A stretch of DNA of 64,000 bases from Incurvaria masculella (Eukaryota > Arthropoda > Insecta > Lepidoptera > Incurvariidae): assembly GCA_946894095.1 (NCBI GenBank), contig OX335665.1, forward strand, positions 9,806,001-9,870,000, in the 5' to 3' direction. Shown here one piece after another: positions 38,401 to 44,400 of this stretch. The notes under the pieces are model-generated. The model was not told the origin of the DNA and searched no databases. It was given only the letters and a program-made list of their open reading frames with translations. Positions within the stretch are counted from its first letter, which is position 1. Each line of letters begins with the position of its first letter. The position numbers and the translations under genes are program-made.

Positions 38401-41400
38401 CCATTTCGCTGGAGCCACGACAAAGCCATTCTAGGCATAATCAGAATCTATGTGAAGCTCTCGCTTTAACAATGGGTGTGATCCTATCTGTGTAATATGG
38501 TTGCAGGTTCTGGACCTGGACGAGACGCTGGTGCACTGCTCCCTGCAGGAGCTGCCCGACGCTAGCTTCAAGTTCCCCGTACTCTTCCAGGACTGTCGCT
38601 ACACGGTGAGCTCTCTGTCTCTAGCCGACCTCGGCTCCCTGGACCGGGACGAGACGCTGGGGCACTGCTCCCTGCAGGAGCTGCCCGACGCCAGCTTCAA
38701 GTTCCCCGTACTCTTCCAGGACTGTCGCTACACGGTGAGCTCTCTGTCTCTAGCCGACCTCGGCTCCCTGGACCGGGACGAGACGCTGGGGCACTGCTCC
38801 CTGCAGGAGCTGCCCGACGCCAGCTTCAAGTTCCCCGTACTCTTCCAGGACTGTCGCTACACGGTGAGCTCTCTGTCTCTAGCCGACCTCGGCTCCCTGG
38901 ACCGGGACGAGACGCTGGGGCACTGCTCCCTGCAGGAGCTGCCCGACGCCAGCTTCAAGTTCCCCGTACTCTTCCAGGACTGTCGCTACACGGTGAGCTC
39001 TCTGTCTCTAGCCGACCTCGGCTCCCTGGACCGGGACGAGACGCTGGGGCACTGCTCCCTGCAGGAGCTGCCCGACGCCAGCTTCAAGTTCCCCGTACTC
39101 TTCCAGGACTGTCGCTACACGGTGAGCTCTCTGTCTCTAGCCGACCTCGGCTCCCTGGACCGGGACGAGACGCTGGGGCACTGCTCCCTGCAGGAGCTGC
39201 CCGACGCCAGCTTCAAGTTCCCCGTACTCTTCCAGGACTGTCGCTACACGGTGAGCTCTCTGTCTCTAGCCGACCTCGGCTCCCTGGACCGGGACGAGAC
39301 GCTGGGGCACTGCTCCCTGCAGGAGCTGCCCGACGCCAGCTTCAAGTTCCCCGTACTCTTCCAGGACTGTCGCTACACGGTGAGCTCTCTGTCTCTAGCC
39401 GACCTCGGCTCCCTGGACCGGGACGAGACGCTGGGGCACTGCTCCCTGCAGGAGCTGCCCGACGCCAGCTTCAAGTTCCCCGTACTCTTCCAGGACTGTC
39501 GCTACACGGTGAGCTCTCTGTCTCTAGCCGACCTCGGCTCCCTGGACCGGGACGAGACGCTGGGGCACTGCTCCCTGCAGGAGCTGCCCGACGCCAGCTT
39601 CAAGTTCCCCGTACTCTTCCAGGACTGTCGCTACACGGTGAGCTCTCTGTCTCTAGCCGACCTCGGCTCCCTGGACCGGGACGAGACGCTGGGGCACTGC
39701 TCCCTGCAGGAGCTGCCCGACGCCAGCTTCAAGTTCCCCGTACTCTTCCAGGACTGTCGCTACACGGTGAGCTCTCTGTCTCTAGCCGACCTCGGCTCCC
39801 TGGACCGGGACGAGACGCTGGGGCACTGCTCCCTGCAGGAGCTGCCCGACGCCAGCTTCAAGTTCCCCGTACTCTTCCAGGACTGTCGCTACACGGTGAG
39901 CTCTCTGTCTCTAGCCGACCTCGGCTCCCTGGACCGGGACGAGACGCTGGGGCACTGCTCCCTGCAGGAGCTGCCCGACGCCAGCTTCAAGTTCCCCGTA
40001 CTCTTCCAGGACTGTCGCTACACGGTGAGCTCTCTGTCTCTAGCCGACCTCGGCTCCCTGGACCGGGACGAGACGCTGGGGCACTGCTCCCTGCAGGAGC
40101 TGCCCGACGCCAGCTTCAAGTTCCCCGTACTCTTCCAGGACTGTCGCTACACGGTGAGCTCTCTGTCTCTAGCCGACCTCGGCTCCCTGGACCGGGACGA
40201 GACGCTGGGGCACTGCTCCCTGCAGGAGCTGCCCGACGCCAGCTTCAAGTTCCCCGTACTCTTCCAGGACTGTCGCTACACGGTGAGCTCTCTGTCTCTA
40301 GCCGACCTCGGCTCCCTGGACCGGGACGAGACGCTGGGGCACTGCTCCCTGCAGGAGCTGCCCGACGCCAGCTTCAAGTTCCCCGTACTCTTCCAGGACT
40401 GTCGCTACACGGTGAGCTCTCTGTCTCTAGCCGACCTCGGCTCCCTGGACCGGGACGAGACGCTGGGGCACTGCTCCCTGCAGGAGCTGCCCGACGCCAG
40501 CTTCAAGTTCCCCGTACTCTTCCAGGACTGTCGCTACACGGTGAGCTCTCTGTCTCTAGCCGACCTCGGCTCCCTGGACCGGGACGAGACGCTGGGGCAC
40601 TGCTCCCTGCAGGAGCTGCCCGACGCCAGCTTCAAGTTCCCCGTACTCTTCCAGGACTGTCGCTACACGGTGAGCTCTCTGTCTCTAGCCGACCTCGGCT
40701 CCCTGGACCGGGACGAGACGCTGGGGCACTGCTCCCTGCAGGAGCTGCCCGACGCCAGCTTCAAGTTCCCCGTACTCTTCCAGGACTGTCGCTACACGGT
40801 GAGCTCTCTGTCTCTAGCCGACCTCGGCTCCCTGGACCGGGACGAGACGCTGGGGCACTGCTCCCTGCAGGAGCTGCCCGACGCCAGCTTCAAGTTCCCC
40901 GTACTCTTCCAGGACTGTCGCTACACGGTGAGCTCTCTGTCTCTAGCCGACCTCGGCTCCCTGGACCGGGACGAGACGCTGGGGCACTGCTCCCTGCAGG
41001 AGCTGCCCGACGCCAGCTTCAAGTTCCCCGTACTCTTCCAGGACTGTCGCTACACGGTGAGCTCTCTGTCTCTAGCCGACCTCGGCTCCCTGGACCGGGA
41101 CGAGACGCTGGGGCACTGCTCCCTGCAGGAGCTGCCCGACGCCAGCTTCAAGTTCCCCGTACTCTTCCAGGACTGTCGCTACACGGTGAGCTCTCTGTCT
41201 CTAGCCGACCTCGGCTCCCTGGACCGGGACGAGACGCTGGGGCACTGCTCCCTGCAGGAGCTGCCCGACGCCAGCTTCAAGTTCCCCGTACTCTTCCAGG
41301 ACTGTCGCTACACGGTGAGCTCTCTGTCTCTAGCCGACCTCGGCTCCCTGGACCGGGACGAGACGCTGGGGCACTGCTCCCTGCAGGAGCTGCCCGACGC

Positions 41401-44400
41401 CAGCTTCAAGTTCCCCGTACTCTTCCAGGACTGTCGCTACACGGTGAGCTCTCTGTCTCTAGCCGACCTCGGCTCCCTGGACCGGGACGAGACGCTGGGG
41501 CACTGCTCCCTGCAGGAGCTGCCCGACGCCAGCTTCAAGTTCCCCGTACTCTTCCAGGACTGTCGCTACACGGTGAGCTCTCTGTCTCTAGCCGACCTCG
41601 GCTCCCTGGACCGGGACGAGACGCTGGGGCACTGCTCCCTGCAGGAGCTGCCCGACGCCAGCTTCAAGTTCCCCGTACTCTTCCAGGACTGTCGCTACAC
41701 GGTGAGCTCTCTGTCTCTAGCCGACCTCGGCTCCCTGGACCGGGACGAGACGCTGGGGCACTGCTCCCTGCAGGAGCTGCCCGACACTGGATTTTTTGAA
41801 GTGTTTGGTTGCCGTGTGCCATAATTTGTTACGGGATTATAATGTGGGACTAAGGGCCGAGTGCACGAAAGGACAAAAAATCAAAATCAGCGTCAACATA
41901 TGATTAAACACGTCATTTTGTATGGACAGTATGGAAGCAATTCCGTAGGGTTCACTAAAAGTGACTAGTTTGAACATTGGTTGACTCGGCCGTCTCTTCG
42001 TGCAATCGGGGCTAAGTGCGACATCCCTCAGCGGGAGCCGTTACCACTTTGGTATTGAAGTGGTTGTTTAGGCTCCCGGTGCGAGGAGTGTGTGTGGGTG
42101 CTGCAACTTGACGGTTGTGGTCGGCAGGTGTTCGTGCGCACGCGGCCGCACTTCGCCGAGTTCCTGTCGCGCGTCTCCCAGACGTACGAGGTGATCCTGT
42201 TCACGGCGAGCAAGCGCGTGTACGCCGACCGCCTCCTCAACCTGCTGGACCCGGCCCGGCGGTGGATCAAGTACAGGTGAGCCGCATTCATTTTGGCCCA
42301 GACTGTAGCTAAATATTCTCAGAGTGGCGGCGCCGCAACGAGACGAGAAAAAACAATGTTTGACAAATTTTACTGTTTTGTTGAACACCCTCCATCCAAT
42401 GACTTCTATCTTCAATCTATTGGTTATTGTAAAATGCTTAGTGAAGTAATACAATTTGCATTCCAGAAACTTTCACGTATACCCATGTACAGAGCGTGCC
42501 GCCATATCCTATACAGCGAAGCGCCGATATTTCTAACCAGTAATGTTCATTTTTCCTCTACATGCTAGCTAACTCTCACAACTATCTGTCAACTTTTGTA
42601 TTGACTTCCTGAACCCGCTGGTTTATTATGCATGTTTTTAAGATCAAGCATTATGGTATGTGGACGAACTAATGAAGTTGGCGTCATAATAAAAAAATGT
42701 ACTGGTAGAATAAGATGGCATACAATTCGTCGCGCTCGGGACATACAGGCTTATCTCACAATTATAGCTTTCATATAGATATATAGAATACATATTTTAA
42801 TTTATTTGCTCTATTATTTATGTTTAAACTTTTAGCAAAGCTTCTTACCAGGTTATTTTTTACAGCATCATTTGCAGTATATTCACTAAACTCTAAAAAC
42901 GAAACAGAAACTACAACTTTTTCAACTCTACTGCAAATTTAATAAAAATGAGATGCGCCTGTACGTCCCGGTTGCGACGAATTCATCATGTAAAAGACTT
43001 GTGGCGATATTCTTTCCAAAATTTATAAATGCACGCTCTTTTGTAGCGTATTCGAGTTGGAATGGTTTGTTAGAAAGCTCGACACACCGAGCGCTCGAGA
43101 CTAATCCAAGCGGAGGTGCGGCAGTGCATGACGTGTGTGCTCTGGGCCAGGTTGTTCCGGGAGCACTGCCTGCTTGTGAACGGCAACTACGTGAAGGACC
43201 TCTCCATCCTGGGCCGCGACCTGCGCAAGACGGTCATCGTGGACAACAGCCCCCAGGTACTGCACTCACCCCTCGCAGTCACCTCAGCTCCGAGCGCTTA
43301 TTGTCCGCGCGATTGGAAGCGCAAAATGTGTAATAGTTGTCTGACCGTACGGTCGGTCCGAGTTCCCATCTAAATCGGGGTGTACGGAACTTTAAAGTTA
43401 CGTAAAAACTTTTACTACTTATTATTCACTGTATATATTTATGAATGAAATCTTAGGTTTATATTAGGTGGTTATATAACATATAACCACCTCGACCTAT
43501 TTTGCATGAACTTTAAGAGCATCAAAAATGAAGTAAATATTCATTATTTTGGAAATGAGCAATAAGAAAAGCGTAAACTCATTACACCCTGCAATATTAT
43601 TATTATTTTACCTCTTCAACTGTGGAAAATTCATTTATTTCGTAACCCCCTTTTATATATATATTTTTTTGCGACATGTGATGCTCATAATTAACTTAAT
43701 ATTTTACTGTATTTGTCTAGGTATGTTCGATGACTGAATCTTTTTTTTCATTTGTATACTCAACTTTGAGAATATGTAACTGGTGTTTATTTTTATTACT
43801 TTGTTAATTCACTTTATGTATGAATGCACTGTTGTTTCTCCGAATAAATAAAATAAAATAAATAAAAATATTATTGAATACAAAAATACAAAAACGAAGC
43901 CTTAAAAAATATAAAACTAAAACTGGATAGAACTTTAGGGAGGTCCCACCTGGGACAAATCCTATGAGGCAGCTCCAAGCTACAGAGACAGAAACCGGAG
44001 AAGGATTCTCGTGTTCGAAAGTAGAACCGCTTTCTGCATCTGGAATCGGGTCCTAATATCGATATCTCATTTTACTATATTTTTGGGCAAATTTTGAATT
44101 TGAATGAACGCATTGAAAAGCATTGAATGAACGATGGTCAAAGCTGCAATGAAAATTGTCATCGTTTTCCATCCAGTTCAATGTAGCCGAGCAATATAAG
44201 GAATGTCCTGGCATGTCACCTAGTTCCCATGTGGTGTGTTAAACTAATATCTCACGGTCAGTTTGGTATTAGCCATCCATGCCCAGTTACATAAAAAATA
44301 AAAAAAATGTTGGTTTTTCTTAACGCATGCGTGCTACATCAACAACCATACATTTTAAAACGCTAGTCAATAGTTTTGAAAACTTACGGTTTTCCGGTGT

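Follow-up and report, generated by a model that had tools for sequence, protein, structure and literature searches.

Here, we report a tandem array of 25 complete copies of a 129-bp unit in a CTDSPL2-type phosphatase gene of the moth Incurvaria masculella, in which each copy fuses nearly the whole catalytic exon to its splice donor and to the start of the following intron. The array lies in a window of 64,000 nucleotides (the whole stretch that was analysed: GenBank assembly GCA_946894095.1, contig OX335665.1, positions 9,806,001 to 9,870,000 of the forward strand), and coordinates given without a contig are those of the window. The array is most probably a young minisatellite that straddles the 3′ end of the catalytic exon, is spliced mainly from its first copy and is mostly harmless. 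It belongs to a class of exon-end tandem arrays that recurs in this moth.

The 129-bp array is real and, as a repeat, far beyond what chance would produce. Tandem Repeats Finder (TRF) returned it as a single array at 38510–41785 with a period of 129, 25.4 copies and a score of 6531, and a unit-by-unit cut resolved it into 25 full copies and a 26th that ends after 51 bp. By the splice sites, the unit consists of 96 bp of exon and 33 bp of intron. Copy 1 (38510–38638, plus strand, donor at 38606) differs from the repeat unit at three bases, positions 8, 23 and 54. Copies 2–25 (38639–41734, plus strand) are 100% identical, with zero differences across 3,096 bp, and have in common the replacements Leu to Arg and Val to Gly and a silent Ala change from GCT to GCC. 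The sequence GGTGAGC, the donor of a real exon, is found inside each complete copy (25/25), the GTGAGC donors of copies 2–25 running from 38735 to 41702; the truncated copy 26 (41735–41785, plus strand, 51 bp) is without one. Read in the frame of the gene, the unit is LDRDETLGHCSLQELPDASFKFPVLFQDCRYT-VSSLSLADLGS, 43 codons without a stop, and the stop-to-stop frame across the array extends from 38456 to 41824 (1122 aa). A search of the 552-Mb genome (31 contigs) with the unit gave 26 matches, all at the CTDSPL2 locus, and a dispersed satellite or mobile element was rejected because the unit is present at this one locus only. A preliminary description of this DNA had proposed the fused exon-donor-intron unit with its 129-bp period, the retention of GTGAGC in every complete copy, the absence of a stop in the gene's frame and the descent of copies 2 onward from one variant copy with the two amino acid replacements, and all of this was borne out by TRF and the unit-by-unit cut, the third shared change being silent. 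The lengths then given (95 bp of exon and 34 bp of intron) give way to 96 and 33, and of the 26 copies then counted 25 are complete.

The assignment of the host gene was likewise upheld: it is a lepidopteran CTDSPL2-type (SCP-like) phosphatase gene. The joined exons match PF03031, the NIF/FCP1-homology domain with its DxDx(T/V) motif, at an E-value of 1.3e-54, their best PDB relatives are CTDSPL and CTDSP1/2, and the listed lepidopteran CTDSPL2 proteins are 88–92% identical to them, a caddisfly protein 86% and P0121, a protein with inserts that is discussed below, 65%. The true catalytic exon, VLDLDETLVHCSLQELPDASFKFPVLFQDCRYT, occupies 38507–38605 on the plus strand (99 bp, 33 codons, phase 0 at both ends) with the borders AG/GTT and ACG/GTGAGC. 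Its junctions are the same in orthologues, and copy 1 includes 38510–38605 of it. Upstream on the same strand are a likely first coding exon at 31491–32494 (MRLRSGK...SACDGT; 3′ end approximate), an open frame with by-eye likeness to the N-termini of P0121 and P0235 and without a Pfam match, and the exon before the array, given here as its core at 36567–36677 (FDPYLFIKQLPPL...TSPDFSL, ending at GTGAGC; 5′ start not delimited). In a quick-method tree of 38 fetched proteins and that of the window, the latter was placed below most moth sequences with long branches and values of 84–92 in the Shimodaira–Hasegawa-like approximate likelihood ratio test (SH-aLRT), so that the lineage of the gene is likely an early-branching lepidopteran one at weak to moderate tree support.

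The motif DLDETLVHC was found exactly once in 233 of 234 fetched homologues (P0001–P0234; P0113 had no match), and no other residue occurred in the 233 at either of the two positions replaced in the array, where the repeats read DRDETLGHC and retain DxDxT as DRDET. Because two replacements fall at sites invariant in 233/234 homologues, the evidence leans towards repeats that are not kept as enzyme, and the changes are as would be expected of unconstrained intronic copies, which does not prove that they are never translated. Functional array-encoded phosphatase modules were rejected on the same ground, the invariant residues of the catalytic loop not being kept. The spread of the array is young because copies 2–25 show no difference in 3,096 bp. 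At an insect mutation rate of 2.9e-9 per site and generation, the absence of change in 24 × 129 bp puts an upper limit of about 330,000 generations on the age of the array (5% level), if copies are taken as independent. The preliminary description had stressed the coincidence of three properties, namely a period divisible by three, an intron piece open in frame and a donor in every copy. All three are present, but their coincidence is weak evidence: a period is divisible by three in one third of cases, and 58% of the 33-bp stretches taken from this gene's introns lack a stop, which gives a joint chance of about 0.19. The donor in all copies adds no evidence because recent spread has made the copies identical, so that they represent one event, not 24.

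The array probably originated when nearly the entire exon, from its second codon on, was duplicated in tandem with the donor and 33 bp of intronic sequence; the short direct repeat CTGGAC-CTGGAC at the exon start may have been the site. One variant copy would then have spread by slippage or unequal exchange to the 24 identical copies now observed. The first donor is most likely the one used, which would yield an exon of normal length and the conserved enzyme, the rest of the array being removed as intron, and occasional use of a later donor would add 43 residues per copy without a frameshift. The remaining exons of the domain are intact, all on the plus strand: VFVRTRPHFAEFL...RWIKY(R) at 42128–42276, (R)LFREHCLLVNGNYVKDLSILGRDLRKTVIVDNSPQ at 43151–43256, AFGYQLENGIPIDSWFVDRTDKELLKLLPFLEHLAT at 45059–45166 and the last exon, KEDVRPHIRDKYKLFTYLPPD with its stop, at 45643–45708. 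The CTDSPL2 gene thus looks functional if copy 1 is used.

The same anatomy, an exon end and its donor repeated in tandem, was found in five other genes of this genome in arrays of differing ages, the CTDSPL2 array having the most copies among those seen. The array of an STK24/25-like kinase (contig C5, 21867200–21869340; loci L045 and L087) repeats the exon HRDIKAANVLL...DFG with its donor GTAGGT (TRF period 150, 8.7 copies); its seven exact donors are spaced by 138 and then five times by 150, most of the array is open in the frame of the gene, and the HRD motif is missing from copies 2 and 3. A MAPK-family kinase (C7, 20283200–20284500; L046 and L088) has six exact donors spaced by 139–140 bp, not in frame. 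The CTDSP1-like gene on C5 (L003) repeats a catalytic-domain exon with GACAG/GTAATC (two exact donors, TRF period 191, 2.3 copies), and UBLCP1 on C22 (L008) an exon end with a GTTAGT donor (41 bp, seven copies), neither in frame. A PKA-like exon (C5, 13429563–13430063; L050) has decayed copies about 75% alike, too decayed for a frame call. With one of the five in frame, three with periods that are not multiples of three and one too decayed to tell, selection for frame across the class is not supported. The idea that such arrays are special to PF03031 genes was rejected since kinases carry them too.

The frequency of repeats at exon ends was estimated from 20 kinase exons, taken in table order with an open frame of at most 210 aa, a filter that drops in-frame arrays such as L045, and not every one of these exons has a recognisable donor near the end of the match. 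One of the 20 had a repeat at its 3′ (donor) end, and one, judged by eye, at its 5′ (acceptor) end. The latter, L080 (C6, 5035773–5036223), is a decayed repeat 5′ of the exon, about 74% alike where BLAST aligned it, and judged by eye it includes the acceptor and the start of the exon; with 1/20 on each side, a donor-only bias was not supported. Among other PF03031 donor ends, a repeat was present at two of eight (three of the CTDSPL2 gene, L001, L002, L003, L006 and the exon before the L008 match, the last judged by TRF and eye). For background, 800 random points were placed in 200 kb of this genome, and 14 of them fell in decayed tandem copies on the downstream side, clustered in seven of 20 stretches.

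Family profile matches were also screened for neighbours within about 1 kb whose model ranges overlap by more than 20 positions, with the tables judged by eye; as the best candidates were scored and short units missed, these counts are lower bounds. Among at least 137 kinase matches there were two overlapping pairs confirmed as arrays and a third pair at C5:18902926/18903556, among at least 14 PF03031 matches one pair (L003/L004), and among at least 103 PTP matches clustered copies on C20 and one pair on C18 (13333129/13333883). No such pair was seen among the best candidates for AAA (at least 21 matches) or DEAD (at least 52). The C20 cluster (G000:C20:2080031–2086154) comprises five PTP-family two-part matches of near-equal score spaced by 0.98–1.45 kb, with a stop in four of the five first parts, and many more PTP-like matches are present on C20, C12, C21 and C24.

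Tandem copies of the CTDSPL2 exon also occur in predicted proteins of other moths. A protein search with the array frame as query listed at least 114 matches of 617–1963 aa. Among these, the two best (192 and 152 bits) proved, when their sequences were read, to carry tandem copies of this exon, and the third covered 20% of the query at 60 bits. No sequence from I. masculella was recognised among the rows that the protein searches listed. P0121 of Plutella xylostella (829 aa) reads ...DCRYT-VSTLRTTRDEQTRSS-SLQELPDASFHFPVLFQDCRYT- (again) -VFVRTRP, with three in-frame copies of a 37-aa unit that starts after the DLDET motif. P0235 of Operophtera brumata (653 aa) has four copies that start with SLDETLVHC, with diverged letters and the nucleophile Asp in none. 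The latter is doubtful as a protein because the exon before the catalytic one is doubled (WVDAFDPYLFIKH twice) and later domain exons are skipped. Both resemble the I. masculella array in that the same exon is repeated in one reading frame; they differ in their breakpoints, the P. xylostella unit lacking DLDET and the O. brumata copies having a different spacer, and in being predictions only. As gene models, they show that copies are present in the DNA and were accepted by a gene predictor, but they are not evidence of transcripts. The junction is plain in P0167, a second P. xylostella model, and inserted copies are seen in P0121 alone among the 56 best rows (P0121–P0176). Because breakpoints differ between species, the arrays of moths would seem to have arisen separately or to have turned over, and the data do not decide between the two. 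Two moths among the listed rows are not clearly above the background of about 2%, although a comparison of proteins would miss copies that lie in introns.

Several observations weigh against an array that is spliced mainly from copy 1 and mostly harmless. Use of the copy-1 donor is itself assumed. The natural donor, identical to those of the array, matches CAG/GTAAGT at only five of nine positions, so that the downstream donors could compete with it; three other donors of the gene match at 6, 7 and 6 positions, and that after 45166, scored by hand, also at five. With the CTDSPL2 array that triggered the search left out, repeats were present at three of 28 exon donor ends versus 14 of 800 random points (one-sided Fisher p 0.017, in a small and partly post hoc sample), a hint that exon ends are perhaps struck more often than random points and that something there may promote arrays; the kinase ends alone (1/20) fit the background (binomial p 0.30). 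The tandem copies of the very same exon in the gene models of two other moths belong here as well.

One alternative is a working donor ladder, in which the 25 donors would be used at graded rates to give CTDSPL2 isoforms with (n−1) × 43 extra residues. Such a ladder is suggested by 25 identical donors in an array open in frame throughout, by a natural donor of middling strength and by the in-frame copies joined in P0121 (three) and P0235 (four). The predicted structure of P0121 has low overall confidence (mean predicted local distance difference test score (pLDDT) 47.5, predicted template modelling score (pTM) 0.38). It has strands around DLDET (579–583 and 588–595) and then in the last copy (675–681 and 684–692), the extra copies at residues 601–670 forming coil at pLDDT 25–38, which indicates at most that extra copies need not break the phosphatase fold. 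Nevertheless, we consider a working ladder unlikely: the repeats have lost two invariant residues, an open in-frame unit is expected by chance at about 0.19, and in three of the five sister arrays the period is not divisible by three. The moth precedents are also gene models, of which P0235 has SLDET in all copies and skips later exons, and P0121 stands alone among its 56 rows beside the normal junction of P0167.

A precedent from humans also favours the ladder. The minisatellite of human IFI6 (6-16, G1P3) provides multiple splice donor sites (Turri, Cuin & Porter 1995, as cited in PMC2572611 and PMC4526556), and two downstream repeat units are used as donors to give three mRNA species, according to the account in PMC4526556. 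The preliminary description named no earlier case of a phosphatase catalytic-loop minisatellite acting as a donor ladder, but a minisatellite with several donors does have this precedent. In anatomy the CTDSPL2 array is a donor-spanning minisatellite of the IFI6 kind, all 25 complete copies carrying the donor of the exon, and in both cases, as far as IFI6 is described in these sources, the units include splice donors, several of which would compete for one acceptor. The two differ in that donor use in IFI6 is documented by mRNA, and in that the CTDSPL2 unit is 129 bp long with nearly the whole catalytic exon inside. The IFI6 unit is reportedly about 12 bp long and present in about 26 copies. 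Internal tandem repeats at exon-intron boundaries have further been described in human segmental duplications (PMC2812944); these similarly span exon-intron borders and, in the part of that work bearing on them, are a recurrent source of altered splicing and possibly of new introns, the human cases being paralogues with transcript evidence and the moth genes being known as DNA. The minisatellites of C. elegans (PMC4039745) and the lectin repeats of prawn (PMC7536079), as presented in the relevant parts of those papers, are not donor-bearing units, and a literature search of open-licence papers found no CTDSPL2 array in insects.

It would be a still bolder proposal that the DLDET exon of CTDSPL2 is a recurrent array site in moths, that exon-end arrays are a standing source of lepidopteran donor ladders, and that the ladder is used here to make CTDSPL2 isoforms of variable length that carry additional, altered modules of the catalytic loop; we hold this combination to be very unlikely. 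Less credible again is a poison or decoy array, in which internal AGs and donors would delimit cryptic exons of 110 bp or sequester U1, output being tuned by frameshift and decay. The AG in the unit (CTCTCTGTCTCTAG/C) is preceded by 11/17 pyrimidines versus 8–10 at five native acceptors of the gene (three of these taken one base off), and the distance from donor to AG inside one unit is 19 bp, which leaves 110 of the 129 bp, not a multiple of three. Against such exons, no yUnAy branch-site-like word was found in two successive units, and 19 bp is too short for an intron. That the true copy number is one or few and the array an artefact of assembly would fit the identity of copies 2–25 in a single assembly, but is highly improbable for a chromosome-scale and likely long-read-based assembly (31 contigs, 552 Mb) in which copy 1 can be told apart from the rest and the last copy is truncated. 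Other genes also hold comparable arrays whose copies have diverged, and a 93-bp array lies in the same window.

This second near-perfect array, at 53819–56908, has 33.2 copies of 93 bp and one variable site (position 91, T in 13/33 and otherwise C) scattered among the copies. It is open on the minus strand in stretches and has weak partial relatives on contigs C21, C7 and C1; a relationship to the 129-bp array was rejected, the sequences being different. A 204-bp tandem repeat of 2.2 copies is located at 61319–61767. In the intron just upstream of the CTDSPL2 array lies the 3′ end of a frame resembling a non-long-terminal-repeat (non-LTR) retrotransposon (37855–38340, minus strand, 161 aa; zf-RVT, PF13966, E-value 1e-5, 26.5 bits and so slightly below the cut-off of 27.5). 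Long open frames of 898 and 533 aa at 15377–20196 on the minus strand also look, on reading, like a non-LTR retrotransposon, and a transposase-like frame of 362 aa with a DUF4817 helix-turn-helix is found at 49003–50091; these two elements are perhaps recent insertions. An unbroken frame of 455 aa at 4779–6146 has C1 and Rubicon-homology domains and is, as we take it from reading, DEF8-like.

As a run of 25 identical in-frame donors, the CTDSPL2 array is a natural test case for how the spliceosome chooses among donors in a row. Exon-end arrays in several kinase and phosphatase genes of I. masculella, ranging from identical to badly decayed, offer a way to measure the birth rate of such arrays, hot spots at exon ends and errors of annotation.

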